The translations under genes were made by a program, and so were the position numbers. A stretch of DNA of 64,000 nt from Mucidula mucida (taxonomy: Eukaryota; Basidiomycota; Agaricomycetes; Agaricales; Physalacriaceae): positions 1 to 64,000 of the forward strand of contig JADNYV010000151.1 in assembly GCA_015501055.1 (NCBI GenBank), read 5' to 3'. Below, piece after piece: positions 7,515 to 40,998 of the stretch. The notes under the pieces were generated by a model. That model made no database searches. It was not told the origin of the DNA and saw only the letters and a list, made by a program, of their open reading frames with translations. Positions within the stretch are counted from its first letter, which is position 1. Every line of letters begins with the position of its first letter.

Positions 7515-9251
7515 TTACTGCCTGTTAGGTTTGCCTATACGCTGCGCGAGGACATCCAAGACCTCCTGCATAGAATAGACGGCGTCCGTCGAACCGGAAA
7601 ACTCAAAGGTCGACTCTGAGCTGGTGTTGAAATGACACAACTTGATACCGCGCTCACGAAGATCTTGAATGATATCGCCGGCGGTAGGATTCTTTCCCTC
7701 CAATGCACCATCCAAGGCCCTGATCTCCTTCTCCGTGAATCCAAATGCCTCTTGCAGCGCTGCGTCATGCGTGAGGTCATGTGAATATTTCTTGAGACGG
7801 TCAAGATGGATGCCAGTGTACGCGTCGGTGACCATCTCGCTCGTCAGAATAGTGCGAATATAATGGCGGCTCATATGCGACATAACCAGCGCGGCCATGA
7901 ACTCGCTGTCCATATAATGCATCACCGCGGCTCGGTCTTCAGGGCGAGCGCGAAGAACGGGCGAGTCGTAGTTCTCTACGAGCAGAAGCGTTCGATGAGC
8001 AGGTGGTGCCTACGTAGGAGAGCATGAGAATGTAGCATCGAAGTCTGACAAGAAATTCATACCGTAGCTACACCCAGCGTAAGGCCCGGTGTGGCCATTA
8101 AGAACCTGTCAATATCCTGACATCCATAGATGTGGTCGTACTTCAGCCACAGCTGACGTATTTGCGAATTGATATATTCGTGGAGGGACTGCGCGACATT
8201 GGATGCGTCTGCGGATATTGTGGAGAGATCCAGATGAAGCACAGGGTATGCCGGCGCAAAGTAGGGCTCCTCGTACATGGGGTATAACGCCTCTATCAAT
8301 GTCGGCGATGAAAGGTCATCACAAACCTGTGACACCATGGATAAGAATGTCTTCATTCCAAATCCGCGTGGGCGACGGAGGATGAGTATGCTGGATGGGT
8401 CGCACTGGTCAATAACGGAGACGCCACGGGTCTTATCCACTAGCAGCATGCCCGGCTGCGCAAGTAGTTGCTGGATGTTGGATACACGCGATGACGGTAA
8501 CACCTGTGTTCGTTCCTTGTGAGCGACTGTGATACAGGCAGTGGGGAGAACACACCTGTTCAGGTCCTAGTGACGACAGAAGGTGTTGTCCTATACGGTG
8601 AATGTTTTTGAGTTTCTGTCTCTTCGTTGCAGACCCAACGCAGCCCTCAGAATCCGAATCCGAACTGGAATCATCATCATCCAAGAATTTCCTTTTGAGA
8701 GACGCTAACCAGGCTTGAGAATGCAGGTTCGTTATATAGAGCAGCGATGTACAGCCGTGCACAGATTCCTCCAGATCGAGCTTAGTGGGACCCGTATGAT
8801 CTATATCGACCGGGGCTAGACTTTTTGCTTTTGGCAGTGCGATAGGCGTAACATTATCGACGATTTCAACGACGAAGGACAAAGGAAAATCTCCCGGCGT
8901 CGCTGGTTGAAATGCTGGGATGTGGTCGGACACAAAAGAATCGCCATCGCGGCTAATGTCTAACGCGATGGCGGAGTTGGATGGCTGGAAGTCGCGTAGG
9001 ATTTTGGGGTCTGCTGCCTCCTCGTTGTAGGTTAGGTTGGGGTGACTCCAGATGCTTCCAGTCGCCATATGCTCCTTCGACAGCTTGAAGCAGTGCGCGT
9101 TACGTAGATTGCTTATAGTGGTATGGAGCGTCTTAAGGGACATTTTTCTCCATTTAAGACACCGGAGGGGGACCACGGAAAACGTGGTTACATGACTCGA
9201 AATGCCAGCAAAAATGGCATCGTCAGAAGGAAATGGCGCGGTATCTGCCAT
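7515..9251 (-). CDS. AAA-ATPase-like family protein, copy B (intact)
   Basis: Three exons (9251-8556, 8503-8063, 8009-7515) join in phase to give about 543 residues. Residues 1-170 form an N-terminal region (MADTAPFPSDDAIFAGISSH...) shared only with copies C and D here. An acidic/serine linker with a basic KRQKLK patch follows at about 205-220, a possible nuclear signal. The PF09820-like part then has LLVDKTRGVSVIDQ, the P-loop-like RRPRGFGMKTFLSMV, VLHLDLSTISADAS, the Walker-B-like LLVENYDSPVLRA, DLTHDAALQEAFGFTEKE and VYSMQEVLDVL. In the family consensus I recall (RPRxFGKT/S), Lys directly follows the Gly; here Met is inserted in register and Lys comes one later. The protein ends without a PD-(D/E)XK domain. 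The SDR gene lies upstream on the same strand. Catalytic activity is uncertain; the family is often linked to mobile DNA or genetic conflict. Confidence 0.75.
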
Positions 9252-9677
9252 TTTGGAAACAGAGGATGATCTGCAGTGGTTTTAGGTTTCTCGGAAGTGA
9301 ACAAGGTAGGTGACTAGGAAATATACCAGGCGGCTGGGGAGACGAAGCAAGGAATTGAGGTGGATGTTAGATGGCAAGCCACTGTCCCGGCTTTTTTAGG
9401 ACCATTGTTCATTGTACGCCGTTGGCTTGCCGTGTCCAGGAGTCAGGTGAGATTGAGCAGTTTGATCAGGTGGCGGTCAAATCAAGAGGAACAAATGCGG
9501 AATCATGTTACCTCAGCCTGTGCTTCCAAACTTTGACCAGCATGTTGCTCCGACCAGTTGTTTCGTCGAACACATGAACCACCACAATATAGGATCTGGA
9601 GAATAAAACTACATCTGAGGTGCAGGCCTCTGCGACGAAGTTAAACGGACAGAATTCTTGAACACAGCGCGCAATAT

Positions 9678-21412: not shown

Positions 21413-21633
21413 CTCAAGACCACCTGATTAAACTGCTCAATCTCACCTGACTGTTGAACACGGCAAGCCAACAGCGTACAATGGACAATGGTCCTAAAAA
21501 AGCCGGGACAGTGGCTTACGACCGAACGCCCTCCTCGATTCCTCGTTTCGCCGCCTGGTATGTTTTCCTAGTCGCCTACCTTGTTCACTTCCGAGAAACC
21601 TGAAACCACTGCAGACCATACTCTGTTTCCAAA

Positions 21634-23380
21634 ATGGCAGATACCAGTGCGCAATTGCCTCATGACGATGTCATTTTTGCTGGCATTTCGAGTCATGTAA
21701 CCACGTTTTCCGTGGTCCCCCTACGGTGTCTCAATTGGAGAACTATGTCACTCAAGACGCTCCATACCACCATAATAGATCTACATAACGCGCACTGCTT
21801 CAAGCTATCGGAGGAGCATACGGCGACTGGAAGAATCTGGAGTCACCCCAACCTAACCTACAACGAGGTGGCAGTAGACTCCACAATCCTACGCGACTAT
21901 CAGCCATCCGACTCCGCAATCGCGTTAGACATTAGCCGTGGTGGCGATTCTTTGGGGTCCGACCACATCCCAGCATTTCAACCAGCGACGCCGGGAGATT
22001 TTCCTTTAGCCTTCGTTGTTGAAATCGTTGACGTTACGCCCATCGCACTGCCAAAGCCTCTAGCCCCGACCGATATAGATCATACGCGGCCCACTAAGCT
22101 TATCCTGGAGGAATCTGTCCATACATGTACGTCGCCGCTCTATATAATGAACCTGCGTTCTCAAGTCTGGTCAGCGTGCCGCAAAAGGAAACACTGTAAT
22201 GACGCTGATTCCACTTCGGACTCGGAATCTGAGGGCTCTATTCGAAGCGTTGGGTCTGCGACGAAGAGACTCAAACTCGAAAATATTCACCGTATAGGAC
22301 AACACCTTTTGTCGTCACTAGGACCTGAACAGGTGCGTTCTTCCACTTCCTGTATCGCAGTCACTCACAATCAATGAACACAGGTGTTACCGTCACCGCG
22401 TGTATCCGACATCCAGCAACTACTCGCGCAGCCGGGCATGCTCCTCGTGGACAAGACTCGTGGCGTCTCGGTTATTGATCACTGCGACCCATCCAGCATA
22501 CTCATCCTTCGTCGCCCACACGGATTTGGGATGAGCACATTCTTATCCATGGTGTCACAGGTCTGTGATGACCTCTCATCGCCGACGTTGATAGAGGTGT
22601 TATACCCCATGGATGAGGAGGCCTACTTTCCCCCGGCATACCCTGTGCTTCACCTGAACCTCTCCAAAGTATTCGCAGACGCATCCAATATCAAGCAGTC
22701 GCTCCAGGAATATATGAATTCGCAGATACGTCAGCTGTGGCTGAAGTACGACCACATCTATGGATATGAGGATGTTGACAGGTTCCTGATGCCCACACCG
22801 GGCGATACGCTCTTTGTATCTACGGTATATATTCCTTCTCACACTCTCTGATCCCTTCTCATGCTCGCATACGCAGACACCATTTATTACGCCCGCTCAT
22901 CAAACACTTCTGCTCGTAGAAAACTACGACTCTCCCGTCCTTCGCGCTCGACCGGAAGACCGAGCTGCGGTGATGCATTATATGGACAGCGAGTTTATGT
23001 CCGCGGTGGTCATGTCTCATGTCCAAGGCCATTTCATTCGCACTATTCTGACCAGCGAGATGGTCACCGACGCGTACACTGGCATTCATCTTGACCGTCT
23101 CGAGGAATATTCACTCGACCTCACGCATGACGCGGCGTTGCAAGAGGCGTTTGGGTTTACGGAAAAGGAGGTCAGGGCCTTGGATGGTGCACTGGAAGGA
23201 AAGAATCCTGCCGCCGGCGATGTCATTCAAGATCTCCATGAGCGCGGTATTGAGTCGTGTCATTTCAACACCAGCTCAGAGTCGACCTTTGAATTTTCTG
23301 GTTCGACGGACGCTGTGTATTCTATGCAGGAGGTTTTGGATGTCCTCGCGCAGCGTATTGGCCAACCTAACAGGCAGTAA
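21634..23380 (+). CDS. AAA-ATPase-like family protein, copy C (intact frame, P-loop Lys lost)
   Basis: Exons 21634-22332, 22384-22824 and 22877-23380 are all phase 0 and give about 547 residues. The domain order is as in copy B: a ~170-residue N-terminal region (MADTSAQLPHDDVIFAGIS), an acidic/basic linker with KRLKLE, LLVDKTRGVSVIDHCDP, the P-loop-like region, VLHLNLSKVFADAS, the Walker-B-like LLVENYDSPVLRA, DLTHDAALQEAFGFTEKEV and VYSMQEVLDVL. The P-loop reads RRPHGFGMSTFLSMV, so the Lys seen in copies A and B is replaced by Ser; nucleotide binding is doubtful. The frame is otherwise intact. The upstream flank (~200 bp) and ~60 bp after the stop are shared with other copies. It probably came from a segmental duplication that included the SDR. 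Confidence 0.75.
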
Positions 23381-26746: not shown

Positions 26747-29519
26747 CTACAAGAACCCTGCACTATAAAATCCCGCCGTCGTATCCGTATTCCAATTGCT
26801 CCAACTGCTGTTCGAAACCTTTAGTACAAAAAGTTTTATCAATTTAGCGACTATTCGCTCACCTATACCAGTCCTCCCCAAGGACCGCATTACTAGGCGG
26901 CATCAGCCACATCGACAAGTCCTCCTTCTCAAACAGCGACATATCCGCAGCGACCTGCGCGTACCCCGGCGACCCGGCCGCAGGAAAATGCAACATACCA
27001 AGATCAAGTTGTTGCGCACTTGTCGAGCCTGGTAGGTATCCCGAAGACGCCGTAAAGTCGTCCAAAGTCGTCGGAGGGGGCGGAGTTATGTCTGCTATCG
27101 GAAGTCCAGCAGACAATTCCTGGAGATTTATGCTTTGTTCGCCGACAATCAGCTAAAGGATGCAGAAAGAAGAAAAGAAGGCTACATAAGGCGATCACAC
27201 ATGCGGAATCTGAAAGGAGAATCAGCAGTGAAAAATCTCAACGTTTAACGGAACATTACTTCTTGGCGCCGTTTTGAAGTACGGTGAAACATGTGCACAG
27301 GTCCTCGAGGTCCCTATTTAGAGGTAACTGACCAGGCCGTATCCGCACCGTATGCCACATGTTCAGTATGATCACTGTCCCCGCAGCAAAGATAGACATC
27401 TGAGAACAGGTCAGCAAAGTTGTAAAAAGGGGACGCGTCCTCGTACATTTGGCACCAAACTTAGTACCGGACACGTCTTCAACAAGACATCCACCAGACG
27501 AATACAAGACCGTGCAGCATTCGTGCATATGGCGAGAGAAGGAAGAGACAGTCGGGAGTTGGTGTGGATGAATGGGCGATGGATGTGCATCTGCATGTTG
27601 TAATATGACATGTGCAGGATGCACGACGACTGGAAATACTCCCCAGGCTGCAAATTGGGATCCCAGCGTACTGAGAGGATTGGATTAGTGATAACCAAAA
27701 GATTGAATCCTAGAAACGTACAATGACTGGGTAGAGAGCTGTACCAAGAATTGAGCATGGAGTCGAGGAAGGAGATGTTACTGTCTATCCAGTTCCCGCG
27801 CATTCCCGCAGCCTCTTGCGACTTGCGAGTACCGAAAAGCGTCTGAAAAGCAAATGACAGAATATGTGAGAGCTTGATGTACGCTAGAAAGGCTTCTATC
27901 TTCGCCGGCTTGTCTGGCGGCTGCTTAAAGTCTGTCTTCGGATTGCCCGTCTCCCAGTATTCCTCGTCACATGCGAGTGGGTACTCCACATCGTAACTGC
28001 AATTAAATTTGTGATGGGCAGAGAAATGCCAAAGCGGCACTCACTCTTCCTCGCGTAGTTGACACGGCCGACCATGGTACAAGCTGACGTTGCGGTCCAG
28101 GACGAACGCCGCCCAGAACACCCGTTTCCTCATTTCAGTTTGCACGGTAGGAGTCTCCACTGGACGATGTCGGTGTAGTCCCAGTTCAATAGCACACCGC
28201 ATGGCTTCACCGGTAGTCAACCAGAGGGCTTGAGGGGCGGATGTGGCCAGAGTAAATTGGGCCCTCAGCTGCAGAATCTTGATTAGGAAACGCCATCTAA
28301 CCGCAGCGAAGAACGTACACAGTAAAACTGCACATCATACAAGCACGGCGAATCAAAAAAGGAACGTGTTGCCATCGTCGTTTGCACAAACCACTTCCAG
28401 CCGGCAGAATGCTCGGATTGCGGAACTCCATTTTTTTCAAGGAAGACACGGGGGTCTGACGAAGTCTGGGAGGCGATAGCACACAGCATCAAGAGCACCC
28501 TTGCAAAGCTCGTGTTGACGTGGTGCAAACCGGACTCTACGTCTCGTCTAAACGTTGCTTCATGTAAAAGAGGAAGATACGCGGGCACAAATTGAAAGTA
28601 CAAATCGAGGAGGTTGTCCATGAGATCGGCGGGAGGAAAAGAAAAAGAGGGATGGGCGATTGTATCCAATTCCCACTAAACGGATAAGCAGGTGCGCAAA
28701 GACGCGTGAAGATAACATACAGGATGTAACTCCCAGCCGTTCTGAGACCACCGCGCCTCGCCCTTCGCCATCATCATTTTCCACATGAAATGCATATTGC
28801 TTGATGGGCCGAAAAACCGGTCTGTCTTGGTGTCGACGAGCGAAAAATTCTTCATGTCTTCCACCAATGCATCGTCATCCGGATCAGTCGCGGGAGGTTG
28901 CTCGGTCGTGTCTTGTGAAGAAGGCGCCACACCGCCAGAGCTCGGTGAGGATGCCAAGGAATCCAAATCGCGTATTCTAAGAGGGATAAAGGGCATGCTA
29001 GTGAGTAACGAGGAAGCTTACCGGGCATGCGCCTGAGCCAGGGACTCTTCAAGCTCTTTGACGCGTTCTCGTAGGGTCGTAACATGCGTTGCTCTAATCG
29101 ATGAAAGAGCGGGAAATATGAAGAATTATCGGAACGTACAGGTCTTTCTTTCCGCGCTTCTACTTGGACATTGCTCGTCAACAGTTGTCGTTCAATGGAG
29201 AATCAAAAACCTACCTGTGGTGGAGTATCATGACTGCACGGGATGCCACTTTGCCGACAATTCTTGCATTGACCATCTGGAGCTGTAAGACTATCGCCTT
29301 GAGGGTTGTATCAGCCTCTGTTGCGAAAGGCTATATATAAACTAACATTTCACTACAGTGTTATGAGTCTATAAACGCCTCTACACTGCACAGATGCACA
29401 CCTTTCTTCCTTCTGCAGGCGTCGCAGCTTCCTGGGATGCGTTTCCAAGTCTTTTGCGGTTTCCCTACTCGTAGGCTGCTTGTACCTGCTCCGGTATCAC
29501 TGTGTTCGTCGGAAGACAT
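26747..29519 (-). CDS. Zn(II)2Cys6 fungal transcription factor 1
   Basis: Start at 29519 (MSSDEHSDTGAGTSSLRVGK). The zinc cluster CDACRRKK-VKC-DSLTAPDGQCKNCRQSGIPC is assembled from exon 1 (29519-29402), a 6-nt microexon (29352-29347) and an exon starting at 29297. Its spacing is CX2CX6CX9CX2CX6C, the binuclear cluster that binds DNA. A coiled linker (LRERVKELEESL) follows, then RFFGPSSNMHFMWKMM, and a fungal-specific middle-homology region (PF04082-type) with LLHEATFRRDVESGLHH, AIELGLHRHR, KRVFWAAFVLDRNVSLYHGRP and LDSMLNSWYSSLPS. The C-terminus carries MSLFEKEDLSMWL. A last exon beyond an apparent stop is supported by paralogy (SSWSNWN..TAGFYSAGFL, ending at 26747). The target genes are unknown. 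It lies 188 bp downstream of factor 2 on the same strand; the two are tandem paralogs. Confidence 0.85.
29347..29352 (-). other. 6-nt microexon in transcription factor 1
   Basis: TGAAAT on the coding strand is flanked by CTGTAG and GTTAGT. The introns are 29401-29353 (49 nt) and 29346-29298 (49 nt). It supplies Val-Lys and the first base of the third zinc-cluster Cys. Confidence 0.75.
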
Positions 29520-29706
29520 GTCGTGGTTCCGTTAAGAGAGGATGATGATCGGTATCAGTCGCACGGCGCGTCCTAGTTGCGTCCTAGGTATTCGTCAGCG
29601 GTCACGCTCTAACCATACCGCGAGGTGAGATTACGGTCACGCTATAGATTTCGTGTACGTGCCGAGGAACATAATCTACCTAGTAATACATTGGTACGAT
29701 ATCTTT

Positions 29707-32524
29707 CTAATATAGAGTCCGTTTGCCAGCATCATAGAATCCTGTCCTCGCGTACTCATTCCAATCGGTCCAGCTGCCAAATTGATTAGAGAGATCAAAC
29801 CAACAGCAAAGCTCGTAAAACTGACCTGGATGCCATGACTTCGGTCCCCGGTAGGCTACTCATCCACATCATAACATCATCCTCTTCAAAGAGAGACATG
29901 TCAGCATCGCAGGAGAATATCCCGACGCTGTCTCCTCAGAGTCTAGTTCCGCAGGCCTTCGCTGCATACCGAAAAGTGTCGGATCCAAGATAGAGATGTC
30001 AAAGGTCGCGCTGGGAGCCGAAACGTAACCTGAAGGAGCCTTGTGGAATACATCGGGCAGGAAGGGTCTACACGTGCTGGAATTGGAAGACCATTTGAGA
30101 GCTCTCGCAGACTCAACCTATCGGGGATTGGACTTTAGGGCTTCAATCCCACAAAGGAGATATGTTACGCACATGAGTCGATGGCACATGCGGTACCTAC
30201 GATGTGGGATGAACAGGTGTTTTGAGAGACGATGCTACGGGACGCTTACTGCTTTGCACCTTCTTGAAGCAGGTTCAAGCACCTACAGAGATCTTCTCCG
30301 TCTTTTTGAAGCGGCGGTTGTCCTGGGCGTGTACGCACGGTACGCCACATATTCATGATGATAATCGTCCCCGCCGAGAATATGGCCATCTAAGGTAAAC
30401 TCCGGTCAATGCACCAGAGCTACCCAATGAGAAGAACACCGACGTTTGGGATCAAACTCAGCACAGGACTTGTAGCCAACAATAGCTCCACCAGTCGAAT
30501 ACATGATCGTGCAGCATTAGTACAGATTGCCTGCGAAGGCAGCGCAAGAGGCGATGCTCTATGCACAAAGGGACGATGGACATGCATTTGGAGATCATAG
30601 TAGACCATGTATAACTTTGCTGAGTGTTGAAACCATTCGCCGGGTTCAGCTTGAGGGTCCCAGCGCACTAGACGAGAAACATCAGATCACGGAAGAGGAG
30701 AATGCACGCAGGCATACAGTGACTTGGGATGCCGTTATACCACGAATTAAGCATCGAGTCGATGACGGCGACGGTATTCTCAATCCAGCTACCCTTCAAG
30801 CCGGCAGCCTCTTGCGACTTGCGGATACCGTAAAGTGTACGCATCATGAAGGATATTATATGGCAGAGTTTGATGTATTGCGCAAACGCCTCCGCTTTAC
30901 TGGGCTTCCCAGGTGGCTGCTTGAAATCTGTAGCAGGATTTCCAGTATCCCAGTACTCATCGTCGCACTGTAACGGATATTCTACGTCAAAGCTGAGATT
31001 CGTTGTGAGTGCAATTGGCGCAAAAATCAGAGACATTTACGCTCACTCCTCATCTCTAATCATGAATGGGCGGCCTTGATAAAGACTACAGTGGCGGTCG
31101 ATTATGAAAGCGCTCCAGAAAACACGTTTCTTGAGTTCAGTTTCGACAGTTGGCGGACCTGGACGGTGTCGATGTAGGCCGAGTTCTATGGCATACCGCA
31201 CAGCGATTCCAACCATCGTCCATGTCGCTTGGGGGGCTGATGTCCCAAGCAAGTACTGCGATGCAAGCTAAACATTAACCCGATCAGCTCTAATGTCGAA
31301 GGCGCTGCTAAAGATGAAAAACTTACGATACAGTACTGAACATCATAGATGCTCGGGTTTTCAAAAAGGGAGCGAGAACGCGTCATTGTTTGAGAATACC
31401 ATTTCCACCCGGCGGATTGCACCGCGTCAGGCTCGTTCTCAAGAAAGACGCGAGGATCCGAAGAGCCACGCGAGGCAACGGCGCAGACCATCAAGACGAC
31501 AGCACCAAAACTCGTATCCAGATGGTGTAGGCCTGAGGCCACATCCCGCCTAAACGTCGGTTCGTGAAGGAGTATCATGTAAACAGGAAGATATAGGAAG
31601 TAGAAATTTATCAAATCCTCCAAAAGATCTTCCGATGGAAAGATGAAATTGGGGTGTACGATGGACTTGGCTTCCCACTATCAAAAGTGTTAGCATGGTA
31701 GGCGACATGTGAACCAACGCGTACAGAATGCATAGTCAAAATGTTGTAGTCTTCAATGTCAGATGGTCTGGTGAATGCCTGCTCTCCCTTCATGGCCATC
31801 ATCTGCCAAACGAAATGGATATTGCTCGAAGGACCGAAATATCGATCAGCGATCCCTGGACCATTGATGTTGATCTTTTTCATCTCGTCCACCAGCGTTT
31901 CATGCTCTTGGTCATCGCCCTGCGGATCCTCTGTGGGCGACGAGCCCACACTGAGAGGATCCAGTATATTCGAGGAGGTTTGTTGCCTAGAAGATTTGAG
32001 TTTCGCGTCCTGGCTGACAGCAATTCTGAGGCGCACCTAGCGCGAACGAGTAAGTCTTCCAATTCCTTGACGCGTTCTTGCAGGACGGTGACTTGTCTCG
32101 AGCTATATTTGAATGGCTGTAAGTCGATTAGGAGTGAAAGGAAGGGTCGTACTAGTTCTTGATACCGCGTTTCTATCGACGCGTTAAGATTTGGGTGCAA
32201 GCGATACAACAGACGAGACGCACTTGGACAGGTATATCATGGGAGCACATGATTCCGCCCTCTCGACAATGCCTGCATTTGCCATCTACTGATGTACTAC
32301 TGTCGCCTACACGTTTTGAGACAACAGGAGAGAGAAGAAGAATCGGCGCTCACATTTAACTGCAAGGCGCATGAGAAAAAAGCCAAGGACAGATATAGTT
32401 TTGACGTACTCTTCTTCCGCCGACAAGCATCGCAGCTCTTGGGAAGTCGTGTCTTCTTGGAAGGTAGATTTGAGACCTCGGGACTAGATTTCGCACCAGG
32501 GCCAGTATCGGGAGACGAGGACAT
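29707..32524 (-). CDS. Zn(II)2Cys6 fungal transcription factor 2
   Basis: Start at 32524 (MSSSPDTGPGAKSSPEVSNL). The cluster CDACRRKK-IKC-DSSTSVDGKCRHCREGGIMC needs the 6-nt microexon at 32359-32354. A coiled linker (VLQERVKELEDLL) precedes DRYFGPSSNIHFVWQMM and the PF04082-type region: LLHEPTFRRDVASGLHHLDT, AIELGLHRHRPGPP, KKRVFWSAFIIDRHCSLYQG, DVEYPLQCDDEYWDTG, LDSMLNSWYNGIPSH and HRPFVHRASPLALPS. The C-terminal motif MSLFEEDDVMMWM matches factor 1's MSLFEKEDLSMWL, and the last exon encodes SSWTDWNEYARTGFYDAG, ending at 29707. The frames are clean. This is a paralog of factors 1 and 3, presumably nuclear and acting on a metabolic regulon that cannot be named. Confidence 0.85.
32354..32359 (-). 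other. 6-nt microexon in transcription factor 2
   Basis: TTAAAT on the coding strand, flanked by TTGCAG and GTGAGC. The introns are 32409-32360 (50 nt) and 32353-32307 (47 nt). It supplies Ile-Lys and the first base of the third Cys. Confidence 0.75.
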
Positions 32525-32868
32525 ATGTTCAGAGAAACGGCAGATAGAAGGATGGTGACTGAAGATGGCGGTTGTTTGAGGGCAAAGTCATTATCGAACG
32601 GAACCAGAGCACAAAACCTTCGGTGCCGACGCGTTACATCAAGCCTCCGCCGATCCAACTGCCGATCCCTGGCCAATCCGCGCGTGACACGAACGTGATA
32701 CTGGGTATTATTATTATTGTGAGTATTGAATACAATTGGTTTATGCGGATGAGTGTCCCAGTCTGCGTGTAATGCTACTAATAATGATGAACGGCAGAGT
32801 ATGATGTCCGCTATATGTACGACAAAGCAAAACCAAAAGAAAGTCGACGAAATGAGAGATCCAAAATA

Positions 32869-35800
32869 CTACATCCCCGGTTTCCAACTCGAAGGCGGAG
32901 CCCCGCCACGCCTTTTACCACCACTGGGACTATGTTGATGCCCGTGCTGTTTCGCAGGACTTGCGGGTTGACTGACTGTCCTTGATCGAGACCCTCCCTT
33001 TGGAGGGGGTCCCTTGGAGATATTCCCACTCTGTTGCTGTTGAGGAATGGGAGGCATCGGTGGAAAGTAAGCTGAGCTCTGGCGACCTCGGTTGTCGCCA
33101 CCACCACCGTACGCGCTCCGAGAACCTATACCACCGCCGTACATGGATTGCGACGAACCCCAGCCACCACCACCGCCACCATACTCGCTTCGTGCGCCAC
33201 TCGGTCCTCCGTACATTGACTGGCTACCCCAACCGCCTCCGCCTCCTCCATACACACTCCCGGCAGTAGAGAACGCAACCGCTGAGCTACGTTCCCATTC
33301 CTCTGCTGCTGCTGCCATGGCCTGCTGCGCCACCGCAATTTGATATGCCTGTTTCGCGTACATCATCGCCTGCTGATGCGCTGCGAAAAATGCCGGATCT
33401 CCAGGAGGCGGCATGAATTGGGCAGGATTTATCATCGGAGTCCCAGTCATCATCTGAGGATTCATCGGCATCATTTGCGACATGTTCATCTGGGGCATGT
33501 TCATAGGCATATTCATCATCGGCATAGGCCAGCCCGGCTGAGCAAACATGGCACTACTCATGCGTCCTTGATTGACAGGCGTGTCTTCGTCATCGTCAAC
33601 GAGAGGTCCTCGGCCGTTAACGACATTGCCCAACTGGTAAAGTTTGTCAGTCAGTTCATTCACCAAGGCAACTGACGCATACCTCTATCGAAGCCTTCGC
33701 TTCGTTCCTCCTTCGCTCAAGCTCCTTCTTCTGCTTGTCCTGTCCCTTATCCTCAAAGCTCACACTCCGCTGCTTAGAATGTCCAGTCACGCTGCTTGCG
33801 ATATCGCTCCCATCATTGGGCGTCAACGGTTGACGGCCACTGCTTGAATCACCCGTGGAACTCGCAGGACTCGTAAACGGCTTCACGGGCATCAACTGCA
33901 TCATCGACGTACTGCGCGGACGAGGTACTATCGTGGTATCAGCTGGTTGAGGCCTTGCCTGCGCTCGGCCAACATCCATCGTGGAGGAGCTACCCGGCAT
34001 GACGATGCTGTTGCGCTGACGAGGAAGATCAGACGTCGAGGAAGGACCTGTTAGCGCGGGTCGTTGTCGGGGGGCATCAAATGTCGAAGATGGACTAGTC
34101 GCAGTGGTGCGCGGCTTAGGCGCCACCATCGGTAGCTTCATAGCGCTACGCTGCGATATCGGAGTACCCACAGGCATCTTGCGCGGAGCGAAAAACGAAG
34201 TCGTTACGGGTGTGGGACTTGTAGACGTTCTCGAGGACACGGTCGATGCACTGGCAGAGCTGGTCCCACTACTCATACTCTCGGTAACACTTGCCGGCGA
34301 CTGGCGGGGCTTCGTGAGTAGCGGAGAAGGAACTGGAGGTAAGGCGGGCGCTGGGGAACCACTTGGAACCATAGAAGCACTCCTCTGCCTAGTATCGGCC
34401 AGAGTATCACCCAGGCTGACGGATAATTTGTGCTGCGGTCGAGATGTAACAGCGAATGATGGCGCGGGTGTCCTTCGTTTGATAGGAATAGGTTTAAAGG
34501 ACGAGGTGACCTCTGGCTGCTTCTCTTGCTCCTCCGGTTTCTTTTCTTCCTCCTCACTGGGGTCGCTCTCGCCATTCATGCTAATCAATCTGATTCCACC
34601 GCCAAGCATCAATGCTAGATCGTCCATCCTATCTGAGGCCGGGCTCAAAGCTCTTGGGGGAGACTTATCGCTCGACGTTCTGCGATGCCCAACCGCTCTA
34701 CTGGATCCTGAGGGCGACACGGTCTCCGGAACCGCTGCGACTGCCTTTAACCTCTCAGCAAGGCCGGGCCTTGGGCTAACGGGAGAGCCGATGTTCACTC
34801 CCGAGTCCTGCCTTGCTGGATCCCGCCTCAACGTAGACGTTGTCAAAACTTCTCGACTGGGTTCCTTCCGTAGTGGCGTCCGTCCTAACGCATGCCGCAT
34901 TTCAGGAGAAGCCATCTCGTCAGGACTCAGTGTGCGAGGAATGACCGAAACCAGGTCAGAATCCTTCCTAGTCGGTGCAGTCCTTTTGACCAGCTCAGGG
35001 CTCTTCCTGAGCGCGTTCGCTGACGTGTCAATGGGAGCAAGTCCTGCGGATGCCTTTACCGGTGATCCAGGGGGGCTCACAAATTTGGCGGGAGGACTCT
35101 GGGAAACTATTCCGCCTGAAAGTAACGTCGACCCAGGTGTGAACCCGGCATTCGACGAGGAAGCTGCCGCAGTGCTAAATTTCGGCGGCTGTCCCACGAG
35201 TGAGTTAATGTCGATCAACGGCTTTGACGGATTGGATCGGTTAGACCGGTTAGAGTTATTGGACATTGCGCTTCCAGGTCGGCGTGGTGGTACCAGTCTC
35301 GCCAATGGCGCGTCGTCGTCGGAATCTGACGAAGAGCTATCAGAATTGGACGCCAGCGTGCTTCTACGAGGTTCGTCTGAAATAGACGGGGTCACATGGG
35401 GGAATCAAGCATGCAGGCAAAAATTCGTACCTCGTTTGACCGTGGGATTGGAAACAGTAAATCCTTCTCTAACATGACGCGATGGTCGCGCGTTGTCTGA
35501 TCTTGACGTGAGTGATATATTGCAAAGATGCTCCACGGAAAAACACACCAGCAATTCCGACGGCTCGCTGTGCAGCTGGGCTCGGCGCCAGGGCACTTGT
35601 AGAATGACTCGCGCGCTGTCTGGGAGAACGCGGCGTTATCGTCGGCGCGTCCTCGTCATCACGACTTCCATGCCCCATTTCTGAACGCGTGTTGGAAATG
35701 TACTTTTGGTTCCCAGACCTCCTCTGAGTAACGGTCCGCTTCCTCGACAACGAGGCTTCGTCCTGTCCATAATCGTCGTCACTCTCTTCTTCTTCTTCCT

Positions 35801-36739
35801 CGCTCTCATCACTATCTGACAGGTACCGACTCCTTCGTCTAGGTGCAGGGGCATGTACCGGTCTTGCGCCGCGCGGATTTGAGCCGGAAGAATGCATGGG
35901 CATTCCATGTGGACTCGGAGAACGTATAGGCATTCCATGAGGACTGGAGGAACGTAGTGAAGGGACTGGCGATCCAGCCGCGCTCCGACGAGCCTGGGCC
36001 TCCCGGAAAGCTGCGACGGAGATGCGCTGTGATGAGTCTGAGGCTGTGCTCGTACCCCGAGGCCGCGCTGCAGGTGGTATAGGCGGAGTAAGGGAAGTAG
36101 TTGATGATACAGAACGCGCAGGAGAAGGCGGTCGCACATGTCTAAATGCTTTGAGGTTGAAAGATGCAGAATCTGGGGATAGTAAAGGTGCAGAGGAATT
36201 CGGTTTGGCATTTTGTAAAGACGGTTTAGAGGGTGTAGAGTTTGTGCTTTTCGACCAATTGAAGAATGGGCGTTTCTGGCTACGAGGAGGCGTAGAATCG
36301 GGATTAGTCGGTAAGGAACGCGTGGAGAGGCCCTTGTGCGGATCGCTGTACGCTGCAAAGGAAGGTCTTGGTGCTGGGAGCTCCGCATCTGAGACTGACA
36401 CGCCGCCTATGCTCGTCCTGGGATCGTGACCGTCATTAGAATTGGAAAAGGTGGATCCTGCGGAGCCCTTTTTCCGACCAAACGGCAGGCGCAGCTTGCT
36501 TGACGATGCGACCGGCATACCCGCGGTGGGATAGACATGTTGTGAGGTAGCCGCATAGCATCTTGAGGGTGTAGATGGTTGCGACCATTGGGACTGGAAG
36601 GTAGTGACTTGTCGGGGCGCACGTATTCTGTTGTGGGCGACTCCAACGGCGAGTCCATGCCAGATTCAGCGCTGGTCATACTGCGCACATCGCTAGGACC
36701 ACGCTTGCTTTTCTTAGAGAACATCCCAAGAAGCGGCAT
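32869..36739 (-). CDS. Large intrinsically disordered Ser/Pro-rich protein
   Basis: The likely start at 36739 (MPLLGMFSKKSKRGPSDVRS) is followed by long Ser/Pro/Arg-rich exons: LRLPFGRKKGSAGSTFSN, repeated SSSPHGMPIRSPSPHGMPM, an acidic SDESEEEEEESDDDYG run, and 35395-33656 with SDSSSSDSDDDAPLARL. An intron with GTACGA..TTTCAG ends removes the frame break near 35,400. The last exon has ELERRRNEAKASIEV-LGNVVNGRG, Met/Pro-rich MNMPQMNMSQMMP repeats, Gly-rich YGGGGGGWGSQSMYGG repeats and the C-terminus GGAPPSSWKPGM. A frame change near 36,597 suggests one missing base. No catalytic domain is seen. A scaffold or cortical/regulatory protein is possible, but the function is unknown. It lies between two of the Zn2Cys6 paralogs. 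Confidence 0.6.
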
Positions 36740-38095
36740 CTTGGCTGGTGCTGACGGGCAGTGGTACTACCGTGGCGAGTGTAGCTCCAGTCTAGGTAAT
36801 TGCGACGATGAGCGTGTATACAGGCAATCACAGACCTCGGATAGGAGAAGGGCAGCGCCTACGTCGTGCTGCACGACGAGCAGATGGAGGGAATGAGCGA
36901 AGAAAAGACCGTGGACTGTTTGGGCCCTAGACGGCTGGCACGATGCACGTGGCTTAACGAACCCTGTTATGGAAACTCGGCCTCTTCATGATCTGTTTCA
37001 TTTAATTCGCCATGACACTCGAACGACGACTGTGATTTTGTTGACGATTCTGCTCCCTTTCAGCTCTGCTATATGTCTCTACCATTTGTCCTTGAATACT
37101 GGCAAGGCACCGTCCCTGGACTATTGACTGACGACATTAGACCCCTTCATTTCCATCTGATGGTCTGACTGGCGTCCGATCTTGCTTGAATAACCTACTA
37201 GCTCGCTTACACCCAACAGCCGCGAACTAACACTCTTACTCGGATCTAGCCCATAACGAACGGCACATAACAGTAACCGTCATCATCCTTCAATCACCAA
37301 CGAATATCTCTACCGACATACTCGACTTGATTGCGTCATTGCTAGGTACCGGTTCCCTGTATCCATTGCTCTTGATGTCCCCATGGCGGTTAATTTTTGA
37401 TCGCGATTATCGAATCTCGCACCATCTTCGCGGCGAGAGCGGTGACTACTTATATATGCCGTCTAGACTGACTGATCTCTTACACTGGTCCACTTTTCTG
37501 TTTACCGCTCTCACTTCGCAATGTCTGGGCATACTTGTATGATCCCCCTGCACGTGCGTTCTTGGAAACACGAGCTGACGTTTCGTTAACCTCGCTCCTT
37601 GAATTATGAGGTGACATTACGTTTGCATGTCGCTACTCCGCTCGTACTCCCGTTCCCCGGATTCTCCGAGTCAAACGGTGGCAAACTGAACGTCATGTTT
37701 TCACAACGAAATATACTTGATGCTTCCTGTCTTGCCTTGTATCGTATATCTGAATCTAGCAGTTCGCTTCCGAGGCTCTTTACCCCGACTGTCTTCCACA
37801 AACTGATGACTGTCAAGTTATAGTAAAGGCGACGAGGCAATCCCGCTCGCTAGCAAGTCATGCGAATATATGTAGCGAGTCTCTACTAAGCAGTTGAACG
37901 TAGCTGCAAGGAAGCCTATAAATTCTCCTGCCTTACTTTTTGACAATGAATGTCTTCACAGTGATAGATAAGATCATCAAAAATAATCTTATCAGTTGTC
38001 AAATTGATGAACACTAGGTTGAACTCTAACCACCATCTTCGACGTGTAATCTAATTCAGTCAAAGACGCGTTCTATCTCGTTGAACTCTAAAGGA
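36740..38095. other. Divergent intergenic region
   Basis: This 1.35-kb space separates the disordered-protein gene (minus) from factor 3 (plus). No supported gene is seen. It presumably contains both promoters. Confidence 0.5.
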
Positions 38096-40998
38096 ATGTC
38101 AGACTCGGGGCGCTCTGGAGAAGCGAGCACTCCATCCGAGGATGCAAGGTTTACCGCCTTCTTCCATCCACTTAGTGCTTGAGCTTACGCATCCCAGTCT
38201 CCGTCATGTACGAGTGCCAAAGACCAACGTAAAACGACTATCCGGTTCTTGCGATACGTGTCGAAGGAGAAAAGGTGTGCGTTTACCGTTAAGAAGCTAG
38301 GTGAAGACTAAGATCTTTCTTTACCCAACAGTGAAGTGTATGTGCAATCTCCGCAGCTTGTCGTACCTCGGACGACCGACTTTCTAGGTGACAGTCAGAA
38401 GGGCCAAGGAGCGCCCTGCACGAATTGCCGAGCACACAACATTCCATGTACTCATGATATGCCTGTTCAGGTGTGTCACAATCTGCCTAGCGTTATCTCT
38501 ACACGCTCAAATTGCTGTAGAAACCAGGAATAAAGAACTAGTGCGTGGAAGGTCTTGTTTCCTCTGTTTAATTTACACATGATTTAGTTCCAGGCAAGTT
38601 AACGTACTCCAACAACGGGTGAAGGAACTCGAGGAATTGTTGAAGAAAAGTCAAGATCAGCAGTGCGTATTCGCCCGGCCTGTCTATGCATCTATGTCTT
38701 ATCCTCTGTAGGAAACCGCCCATCTCGTCGGTTTCTGATCCTGTCGCAGAACTGACGGCTCGGCATGAGCACGTCGATGTAGATGATCAAACCGACTCGG
38801 AATATACGCAAATGCTCGACGATATGAAGAAGTTTTCTATAACCTCGACTGACGGGACCAATGACCGCTTCTTTGGACCATCCAGCAATGTCTACTTCAT
38901 TCGCCAGATGCTGAGCATGAAAGGTGGAGCGGGCCCGTCAGGTCGGTCATGGTCGGTACATTCGGTGCGTTTTTCGCGCGCAACTCTTTCCACCGTTTAT
39001 CCTCACGTGCACAACAGTGGGAAGCGGACACTATGAAGCGACCCCTTCTGATATTCCCGGAGGAAGATCTAATGCATAATCTAATCGACATTTTCTTCAG
39101 CAACGTCCCGAATTATCTCACCGCAATTCACGAGCCCAGTTTCCGACGCGAGGTCGCCTGCGGTCTGCATCACCTCAACTCCAGCTTTGGCGGCGTGGTC
39201 TTGATGGTCTGTGGCGTCGCATCGCGCGTCTCACGGGACAATCGCGTTCTCTTGGATGGCGCGTCGGAGCATTCTGCAGGCTGGAAATGGGTTTCGCAGA
39301 CACTGGATCTGCACACATCGCTCTTTCAAAGCGCAAATATCTACGATATTCAATATTGCTGTGTAAGTTCTTTTCAATCTTCCGTGGTTTTTCCCGCTCA
39401 TTCCTAACCGACGTAGCTGTTATCGGAGTACATGCTTGGGTCGTCGACACCTCAGTCGACGTGGTTCGTTATTGGTCAAGGAATGCGCTATGCGATTGAA
39501 CTCGGCTTACATCGGCGTCGCGGTGACGAGAAGCCGACTGTTCAAGGAGAGCTTAAAAACGAGTCTTCTGGACTATTTCATCCTTGATCGTCATATAAGT
39601 ATTTACCATGGTCGACCAGTGTCCATTCCAGACGATGCGTGAGCAATGGTCCATTGCTATTCCTGAGTACGCTGAACATGATCCCAGGTACGATGTGAAT
39701 ACCCGATTCTATGCGATGACGAGTACTGGGAGACTGGAAATCCGGCAACTGACTTCAAACAACCACTGGGAAGCCTTCAAAAATGGAAGCATTCGTTGCC
39801 CTAATAAAGCTCACTCAAATCACATCCATCTCCCTTCGATCTGTCTTCGGCATAAGGACTATGAAGGAGGCGTCGAGTATTCAGAGCAATCTGACGTTAC
39901 TCGACTCAATGCTGAATTCTGGTTCAACTCAGTTCCAGCTCATTGTAGTCCGCTTCCTGTCGTAAGTGTACTTGTACCATTCTCAATCTTCCTTCCTTAG
40001 TGCGCTGGGATACGACCAACCAACCGAAGGATTTCTTTGATCAAGCGTCCGAGTTGTACATGACCTATTACAATCTCCAGATCTTCATTCACCGCCCGTT
40101 TGTCCATTCGAATGCGCCACTTGCGTTGCCTTCGTTAGCAATATGCACCAATGCTGCTAGGTCGTGTATAAGATTGTTGATGATCAGGCATACATTAAGA
40201 CCTGTTCTGAGCATGGTCACCAACGTAAGTTCTCTGTTTGTTTCCTTGACGACTTGCTCAAGGTTTCATAGATGGCGGCGTTCTCTGCGGGAGGTTCAAT
40301 CATCATGAACATGTGGCGGGGATTACGAGAAACGCCACCGCGGGAGCCTGCGAAGAGGGATATAGATGATCTCAGTCACTGTTTGAATGCGTTGAGAAGT
40401 ATCTCTTCGAGGTTGCTAGTTCGTTTAAGTAAAAACAACTCGAGCTGACTTCCATTACAGGTTTCATATGTGTGGACATCTTGTGTATGTTACATACTCA
40501 TTCTGCAATCCCGTTGCTCTGCTCACCCTTTCGCATGGTAGCCATGGGTTGGAGGCTTTTGCCGAGGGCCTACCGTTAGATGAACACAAGGCTGAACCGC
40601 CACCCTGTTATGATATGCAGAAGATCACAGACGATGTTGAGATGCCTTTTGGCGCGTGGGTTCCTTCAGGATACGTTTCGGACCTCAAGCTGCACGACGT
40701 GACTCTCGAGTTCTGTGGTCCGAATTCGTTCGGTGTGATGCCGGAAGAGAAGGCCCAGTTGGAGAATACGGGGCTCTGGGATGGTTTCATTCAGGCTGAT
40801 GTGCCGTTGTTTAATGCGGCTGGGTGGATGAATCCTGCTGAGTCCACGACCAAGGCATTTTCTTCGGAGTGAGTCCATATTTTGTTTCTTCACGAGATCG
40901 AGCGCTCAACTCTTACCCTTCAGTTGGAACGATCAGTGGAACGGATATATGACATCCCTCCCTTCTTTGTCAAGTCTGATGATGGAGGATTTTTGTAG
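38096..40998 (+). pseudogene. Zn(II)2Cys6 fungal transcription factor 3, with multiple one-base frame breaks
   Basis: Start at 38096 (MSDSGRSGEASTPSEDA). An intron at 38149-38197 joins in phase to LRHVRVPKTNVKRLSGSC. The cluster CDTCRRRK-VKC-DSQKGQGAPCTNCRAHNIPC uses the 6-nt microexon 38332-38337. The middle region is clearly paralogous to factors 1 and 2: DRFFGPSSNVYFIRQM, AIHEPSFRREVACGLHHLNS and AIELGLHRRRG. Restoring homology needs one extra base at each of about 39,555-39,559 (A5 run), 39,573, 39,697, 39,773 and 39,919, and probably one near the C-terminus. The end is set at TAG 40996-40998 because SDDGGFL-stop matches factor 1's SAGFL. It is either a pseudogene or a gene damaged by base-calling deletions. 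Confidence 0.7.
38332..38337 (+). other. 6-nt microexon in transcription factor 3
   Basis: TGAAGT lies between CAACAG and GTATGT. The introns are 38275-38331 (57 nt) and 38338-38387 (50 nt). It supplies Val-Lys and the first base of the third Cys. Confidence 0.75.

Follow-up and report, generated by a model that had tools for sequence, protein, structure and literature searches.

The window, the whole 64,000-nucleotide (nt) stretch of Mucidula mucida DNA analysed here, carries three paralogous Zn2Cys6 genes, two on the reverse strand and one on the forward strand. In all three the window DNA contains an exact 6-nt exon between two short GT–AG introns, in the midst of the zinc cluster. The modelled features are given below with their sources; 'chains' stands for the enumeration of splice chains in the DNA and 'comparison' for the own-genome comparison, both described further on.

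29402–29519, reverse strand: gene 1, first coding exon, running from the start codon through CDACRRKK to base 1 of the Val codon (chains and model; same residues in P0001)
29353–29401, reverse strand: gene 1, intron 1, 49 nt, GTGTGC...GTAG, phase 1 (chains and model, comparison)
29347–29352, reverse strand: gene 1, 6-nt microexon TGAAAT, completing Val and supplying Lys and base 1 of Cys3 (chains and model; present in P0001)
29298–29346, reverse strand: gene 1, intron 2, 49 nt, GTTAGT...CAAG, phase 1 (chains and model, comparison)
29215–29297, reverse strand: gene 1, exon from the end of Cys3 to Cys6 (spliced model)
27257–29214, reverse strand: gene 1, other modelled exons and introns, with linker, coiled coil and Fungal_trans; the crude model runs to about 26747 (gene finder, model, Pfam)
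32410–32524, reverse strand: gene 2, first coding exon, with CDACRRKK and base 1 of the Ile codon at its end (chains and model)
32360–32409, reverse strand: gene 2, intron 1, 50 nt, GTACGT...GCAG (chains and model, comparison)
32354–32359, reverse strand: gene 2, 6-nt microexon TTAAAT (chains and model, comparison; the crude gene finder chose the same)
32307–32353, reverse strand: gene 2, intron 2, 47 nt, GTGAGC...GTAG (chains and model, comparison)
32224–32306, reverse strand: gene 2, exon from the end of Cys3 to Cys6 (spliced model)
30339–32223, reverse strand: gene 2, other modelled exons and introns; the model stops before the 3' end (gene finder, model)
38096–38148, forward strand: gene 3, first coding exon (spliced model)
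38198–38274, forward strand: gene 3, exon with CDTCRRRK and base 1 of the Val codon at its end (chains and model)
38275–38331, forward strand: gene 3, intron preceding the microexon, 57 nt, GTGTGC...ACAG (chains and model, comparison)
38332–38337, forward strand: gene 3, 6-nt microexon TGAAGT (chains and model, comparison)
38338–38387, forward strand: gene 3, intron following the microexon, 50 nt, GTATGT...CTAG (chains and model, comparison)
38388–38470, forward strand: gene 3, exon from the end of Cys3 to Cys6 (spliced model)
38521–39550, forward strand: gene 3, additional modelled exons and introns; the frame seems disrupted further on, near 39551–39592 (sequence reading, model)

The apparent break in gene 3 at 39551–39592 (forward strand) is seen relative to genes 1 and 2, in the region matching KKRVFW...DRH. 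Small frame changes or an assembly error may account for it, and gene 3 may be a pseudogene.

What do the six bases contribute? In all three genes they encode V-K or I-K and contribute the initial base of the codon for the third Cys. The models spliced from the DNA read CDACRRKK-VKC-DSLTAPDGQCKNCRQSGIPC in gene 1, CDACRRKK-IKC-DSSTSVDGKCRHCREGGIMC in gene 2 and CDTCRRRK-VKC-DSQKGQGAPCTNCRAHNIPC in gene 3. The flanking introns measure 49/49, 50/47 and 57/50 nt, respectively; all are GT–AG and all are of phase 1. Since every intron modelled in genes 1 and 2 is 45–59 nt long, introns this short are usual here. We took as a microexon any internal coding exon of 15 nt or less with canonical splice sites; in the DNA of genes 1–3 the exon is 6 nt long, with GT–AG on both sides.

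Can the two halves of the cluster be joined in some other way? We enumerated every chain between them with up to two GT–AG introns of 35–120 nt. The chains that make a CX2CX6C...CX2C...C cluster number two in gene 1, one in gene 2 and three in gene 3; the 6-nt chain is the sole one common to the three genes, and the sole one that retains the Asp after Cys3. A longer middle exon of 10 nt (genes 1 and 3) or 28 nt (gene 3) would also give six cysteines, and the 6-nt reading would then be incidental. Such an exon does not exist in gene 2, however; it loses the conserved Asp and relies on poorer donors or on a 35-nt intron. P0001, the NCBI protein of gene 1, has the 6-nt form, and paralogs with the second intron only (see below) have that intron at the position of the 6-nt form. 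We rejected both longer exons and consider their use very improbable. A single intron jumping the hexamer was likewise rejected: the reading frame survives, but not Cys3 or the Pfam call.

Short motifs can arise randomly, and GT and AG sites might complete this one by chance. An equivalent 6-nt exon appeared in 38, 20 and 46 of 20,000 dinucleotide shuffles of the inter-exon stretch of genes 1, 2 and 3, that is, in 0.10–0.23%, figures that are not independent trials because the paralogs are related. Yet the exon is present in 18 of 23 own-genome entries, and the residues predicted for its omission do occur in homologs. The likelihood of mere chance is negligible.

The hexamer of genes 1 and 2, but not that of gene 3, was recovered by a crude gene finder of our own, which placed the adjoining junctions wrongly; the final models were made by hand. 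P0001 (CPB85DRAFT_221500, Mucidula mucida) agrees with our model of gene 1 across the cluster, microexon included. Genes 2 and 3 are absent from the 120 proteins listed, the best 120 of a longer list. By alignment gene 2 is 59% identical to gene 1, and its nearest relative among the matches listed is P0003 of Hymenopellis (87% over 65% of the query), a 395-residue model without a DNA-binding domain. We conclude that the observation of a 6-nt exon in three genes is confirmed. The first-pass annotation had proposed that TGAAAT, TTAAAT and TGAAGT complete CX2CX6C in these genes, at the same phase and encoded position and between introns of 47–57 nt; chain enumeration and spliced models bear this out, and its coordinates and phase were exact.

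If six bases complete the cluster, what is the cost of leaving them out? The cysteines of Zn2Cys6 proteins are spaced CX2CX6C...CX2C...C. With the microexon, Zn_clus (PF00172) scores 33.6, 28.8 and 38.4 bits in genes 1, 2 and 3, against a Pfam cut-off of 21; with six cysteines and these scores, all three genes belong to the Zn2Cys6 class. Without it the scores are 14.9, 12.9 and 20.8 bits, all below the cut-off, gene 3 only just. The skipped forms and the intact form of gene 2 were scored as N-terminal pieces of 112–117 residues. Two annotated proteins with the skip scored 13.6 bits (P0002) and 21.7 bits (P0043); the latter lies just above the cut-off, so some skips stay above it. A Fungal_trans domain (PF04082) is usual, though not universal, in Zn2Cys6 factors. 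It scores 113.4 bits in gene 1 and 37.6 bits in the partial model of gene 3; for gene 2, entered in Pfam as its N-terminal part only, the 59% identity to gene 1 stands in. Among solved structures, the zinc cluster of the heme activator protein is closest in sequence (1hwt, E 6.7e-4). In GAL4 numbering the microexon presumably spans Leu19, Lys20 and the start of Cys21.

Skipping the microexon keeps the frame, turns [V/I]-[K/R]-C into a single Gly or Ser and removes a zinc ligand. The exon is symmetric (phase 1/1), and skipping is in frame in 18 of the 18 own-genome entries that have it. Retention of intron 1 brings a stop in 13 of these 18 and a frame shift in four more, L075 staying open; retention of intron 2 brings a stop in 11 and a shift in four more, with L072, L074 and L085 open.

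How widely is the exon spread in the Mucidula mucida genome? A protein search with gene 2 gave 97 own-genome matches; for part of these we took 24 stretches, either at the match or upstream of it, plus L003. The microexon comparison comprises 23 entries, the three window genes and 20 stretches. A 6-nt exon at the same position and in phase 1/1 is present in the DNA of 18 of the 23, the near-identical copies L069 and L070 both being counted. The hexamers vary (TGAAAT, TTAAAT, TGAAGT, TAAAGT, CAAAAT, TAAAAT, TTCGAT, CACGAT, CCAAAT, TGCGAT), and all encode [V/I/T/M]-[K/R] plus the T of Cys3. P0111, the NCBI protein of the gene on contig C715, contains its TTCGAT exon. Four entries (L077, L078, L083 and L089) have the second intron only; they are uninterrupted at the microexon site and have the same spacing to Cys3, with I-K in L083 and L089 and K-A in L077 and L078. 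The I-K of L083 and L089 is an internal control for the 6-nt reading. The one entry without assignment, L076, gave no complete zinc cluster.

A FastTree phylogeny of the transcription-factor domain of 23 paralogs, L089 left out, places L077, L078 and L083 (C858, C81) with C185 and L076 in one clade (support 0.993). The sister of this clade, C183, has the microexon (support 0.987). Since the intron-2-only clade is nested among microexon genes, loss of intron 1 there is favoured.

Among the other stretches taken, L003 has a zinc cluster without introns, L088 yields a one-intron candidate only, of doubtful fit, and no zinc cluster was found in L082, L091 and L092. Family contigs such as C72, C449, C263 near 43 kb and C294 near 273 kb lie outside the microexon comparison. 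The fixed pattern YAGTNAARTGTRNGY occurs at 41 sites genome-wide and, written backwards as a control, at 17; of the 30 of these 41 sites that were inspected, four lie behind a zinc-cluster half, all in the family of genes 1–3. The pattern alone is thus not diagnostic. By eye, L073 (C183, about 1710–1800) and L074 (C349, about 1325–1405) have an extra intron near Cys1 and a further exon of about 21–22 nt directly before the 6-nt exon, so that the cluster is in four pieces. Very similar zinc-cluster stretches lie on different contigs, L069 (C164) with L070 (C560) and L072 (C263) with L074 (C349); they are perhaps haplotigs or recent duplicates in the 59.9-Mb assembly.

What would become of such an exon in public gene models? 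Joining the outer exons puts the first base of codon 9 before the GY of Cys3, so that Ile (ATH) becomes Ser and Val (GTN) becomes Gly. Three protein searches gave 211 different proteins among the best 120 of 520, 1,313 and 1,426 matches, which do not form a random sample; 194 of the 211 were classed as annotated. Among these 194 listed homologs, 116 have an intact cluster by pattern (including P0037 and P0077, which look patched), 52 are skip-like (50 strictly so, with the exact in-frame skip signature), eight are otherwise patched, ten have the second half only and eight show no cluster close to the N-terminus (in one of them a cluster follows further along). Altogether 77 of the 194 are without an intact cluster. 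The precomputed Zn_clus call is absent from 46 of the 50 strict skips and present in P0053, P0080, P0130 and P0184. It had been suggested from the sequence that gene finders miss the exon and that the proteins then lose the domain. This happens frequently, as the 50 and the 46 attest, but not universally, for gene 1 itself was annotated with the exon (P0001).

The residues found at the junction follow the codons. For 48 skip-like proteins we compared the nearest intact relative: Ile there corresponds to Ser in the skip in 38 of 38 cases, and Val to Gly in five of six and to Ser in one. The nearest intact relative has Asn in two further cases and Ser in two, and the skip residue is Ser in all four. 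The association of Ile/Val with Ser/Gly has a Fisher p of 5.5e-6, although the proteins are related, many with one common nearest relative, and so are not independent. The sole Val-to-Ser case, P0008, resembles the Mucidula paralog L071, which has Thr; Thr predicts Ser, which would explain it.

The skip signature is directly established in other species. Strict skips occur in the Hymenochaetales, Gloeophyllales, Russulales, Boletales and Polyporales (one looked-up species each) and in Hymenopellis P0002 and Agaricus P0108, genera of the Agaricales; Trametes versicolor P0102 is annotated with the skip. From these protein signatures we infer the microexon in other species. In Neolentinus P0147, Crucibulum P0087 and Exidia P0199 (Exidia being of the Auriculariales) the filled stretch ends in Gly-Asp, as AG|GY would give, which suggests that intron 2 has been translated right after Cys3. 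The proposal that the exon is ancient is sustained by the same structure in 18 of 23 own-genome entries and by the skip signature in annotated homologs from several Agaricomycete orders.

P0058 and P0037, from the same strain (Mycena sp. CBHHK59/15), are 96% identical, one having the skip and the other a filled third Cys; the pair is an example of inconsistent gene models. The same Met, a few residues behind Cys3, is the start of the annotated proteins P0113, P0136, P0161, P0166, P0170, P0193 and P0201 and of the transcript-like P0116, P0127, P0153, P0175, P0186 and P0187. Such starts could reflect retained introns or an internal start, and the product would be a factor without the full zinc cluster.

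Do the annotated skips reflect real transcripts? We treated as transcript-like the 17 listed proteins whose sources are 'lgn' or 'jgi' only. For 12 of the 17 the longest contigs exceed the reading frame by less than 500 nt; ten introns of about 50 nt would not fit into that, and we therefore read these proteins as derived, presumably, from cDNA. Ten of the 17 have an intact cluster, seven of these with at most 436 nt to spare on the contig, and none has the skip. The other seven are without the first half: six start at the Met just behind Cys3 and one is without the region. The intact, transcript-like P0163 shares 80% identity, across 1,078 aligned columns, with P0171, an annotated skip from Coprinopsis, and the intact P0172 is 72% identical to the annotated skip P0188. 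Taken together, the ten intact clusters, the lack of any skip among the 17 and these two pairs favour mis-annotation over real skipping. P0001 and the transcript-like homologs also lend indirect support to the presence of the exon in mature mRNA. Retained introns would still be compatible with the six late starts, and incomplete splicing or another start with the seven incomplete proteins.

These late starts bear on another explanation, that inclusion is regulated, in-frame skipping or retention of a flanking intron giving factors without the cluster that antagonise or modify the full form. The symmetry of the exon, in frame when skipped in 18 of 18 entries, would suit such a switch, as would the six transcript-like reading frames beginning behind Cys3 and the ten annotated proteins with the second half only. 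There are precedents: in Trichoderma virens the 20-nt zinc-cluster microexon of Xlr2 is included without glucose and not with it (PMC11121469), Neurospora fluffy retains a cluster-disrupting intron at pH 8 (PMC4821360), and intron retention in Coprinopsis cinerea counts, with alternative sites, among the major forms of alternative splicing (PMC10532568). Against it, no skip occurs among the 17 transcript-like homologs, and the annotated skips are presumably what gene finders that avoid tiny exons would be expected to produce. One own-genome clade has no first intron and hence is unable to skip, and the term exon skipping is absent from the main text of the C. cinerea survey (PMC10532568). We consider a regulated switch unlikely. 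There is similarly only an outside chance of a class-wide switch in Agaricomycetes, in which many paralogous Zn2Cys6 factors would have kept the 6-nt in-frame microexon since before the orders split; if it were true, cells would be able to use microexon inclusion or intron retention to switch the entire family between isoforms that bind DNA and isoforms that cannot. The earlier suggestion of a possibly regulated splice event is thus not supported by the 17 transcript-like homologs.

The exon is instead very probably an ancient coding microexon, included as a rule and often overlooked in annotation. Genes 1–3 would belong to a large Agaricomycete family of transcription factors with Zn2Cys6 and Fungal_trans domains, whose cluster would be split over three exons: one with Cys1, Cys2 and the basic stretch, the 6-nt exon, and one with Cys3 to Cys6. 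The microexon would supply the rest of codon 9, a Lys or Arg codon and base 1 of Cys3. Splice sites (3' and 5') only 6 nt apart could hardly both be occupied at once, and so each intron of about 50 nt would probably be recognised as a unit (intron definition), the two being removed one after the other. Both constitutive inclusion and this order of splicing we infer from sequence. The microexon is predicted to be normally included and to be required for DNA binding. Its structure would be older than most duplications in the family and widespread in Agaricomycetes, the first intron having been lost in one own-genome clade. Gene prediction often joins the outer exons, and many public models consequently appear without a DNA-binding domain.

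How does this exon compare with known ones? As described for Trichoderma Xlr2 (PMC11121469, 2024), a microexon lies within the Zn2Cys6 domain, the cluster depends on it and standard models miss it; by sequence and Pfam score, the Mucidula exon too lies in the cluster and is needed for it. It is not the same exon. That of Xlr2 has 20 nt, encodes PCRRCE with two cysteines, belongs to one gene of an ascomycete and is conserved in relatives within one genus, with glucose-dependent inclusion demonstrated by RNA-seq and RT-PCR (PMC11121469). The Mucidula exon has 6 nt, leads up to Cys3 and is found in many paralogs and, by protein signatures, in a class of Basidiomycota. Neurospora fluffy is similar in that splicing decides the DNA-binding domain of a C6 zinc regulator, but it involves a single retained intron and no microexon (PMC4821360). 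P450 genes of the Agaricomycete Phanerochaete chrysosporium (PMC1184071, 2005) share exons down to 6 bp and frequent introns of 45–55 bp; unlike the present exon, theirs encode enzymes and mark no single conserved site of a DNA-binding domain, as far as described. The one-nucleotide exon of Fusarium CYP621A (PMC12940212, 2026) is also ultra-short and needed for a conserved motif; it was confirmed by reads and, unlike here, belongs to a P450, to Ascomycota and to one gene family. Plant microexons of 1–15 nt (PMC8831610, 2022) are similarly conserved, their misannotation is pervasive and their omission removes domain calls, as with the 9-nt exon of AP2 factors; kingdom and families differ from those of the Mucidula exon. 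A Pleurotus zinc-cluster survey (PMC7295025) reports many exons below 50 bp in one group, removed sequences without six cysteines and corrected the remaining models with reads; its text, as excerpted, mentions no 6-nt zinc-cluster exon.

We recognised no known microexon at this zinc-cluster site among the open-access papers that our searches listed. As far as these searches reach, a single conserved 6-nt site common to many paralogs and several orders is new, as is the extent to which it marks public gene models. In this large family of mushroom regulators one zinc ligand depends on six bases, and public models leave them out in about a quarter of the annotated homologs listed. Surveys that discard every sequence short of six cysteines could count too few members of the family or describe them as lacking the domain. 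The microexon family is a natural set in which to study how a short-intron splicing machinery handles a 6-nt exon, and if inclusion of that exon is under regulation.

The window also holds a gene family in three copies, at 1928–2976, 7515–9281 (−) and 21604–23380 (+), which end in ...QEVLDVLAQRIGKPNRQ or close to it.
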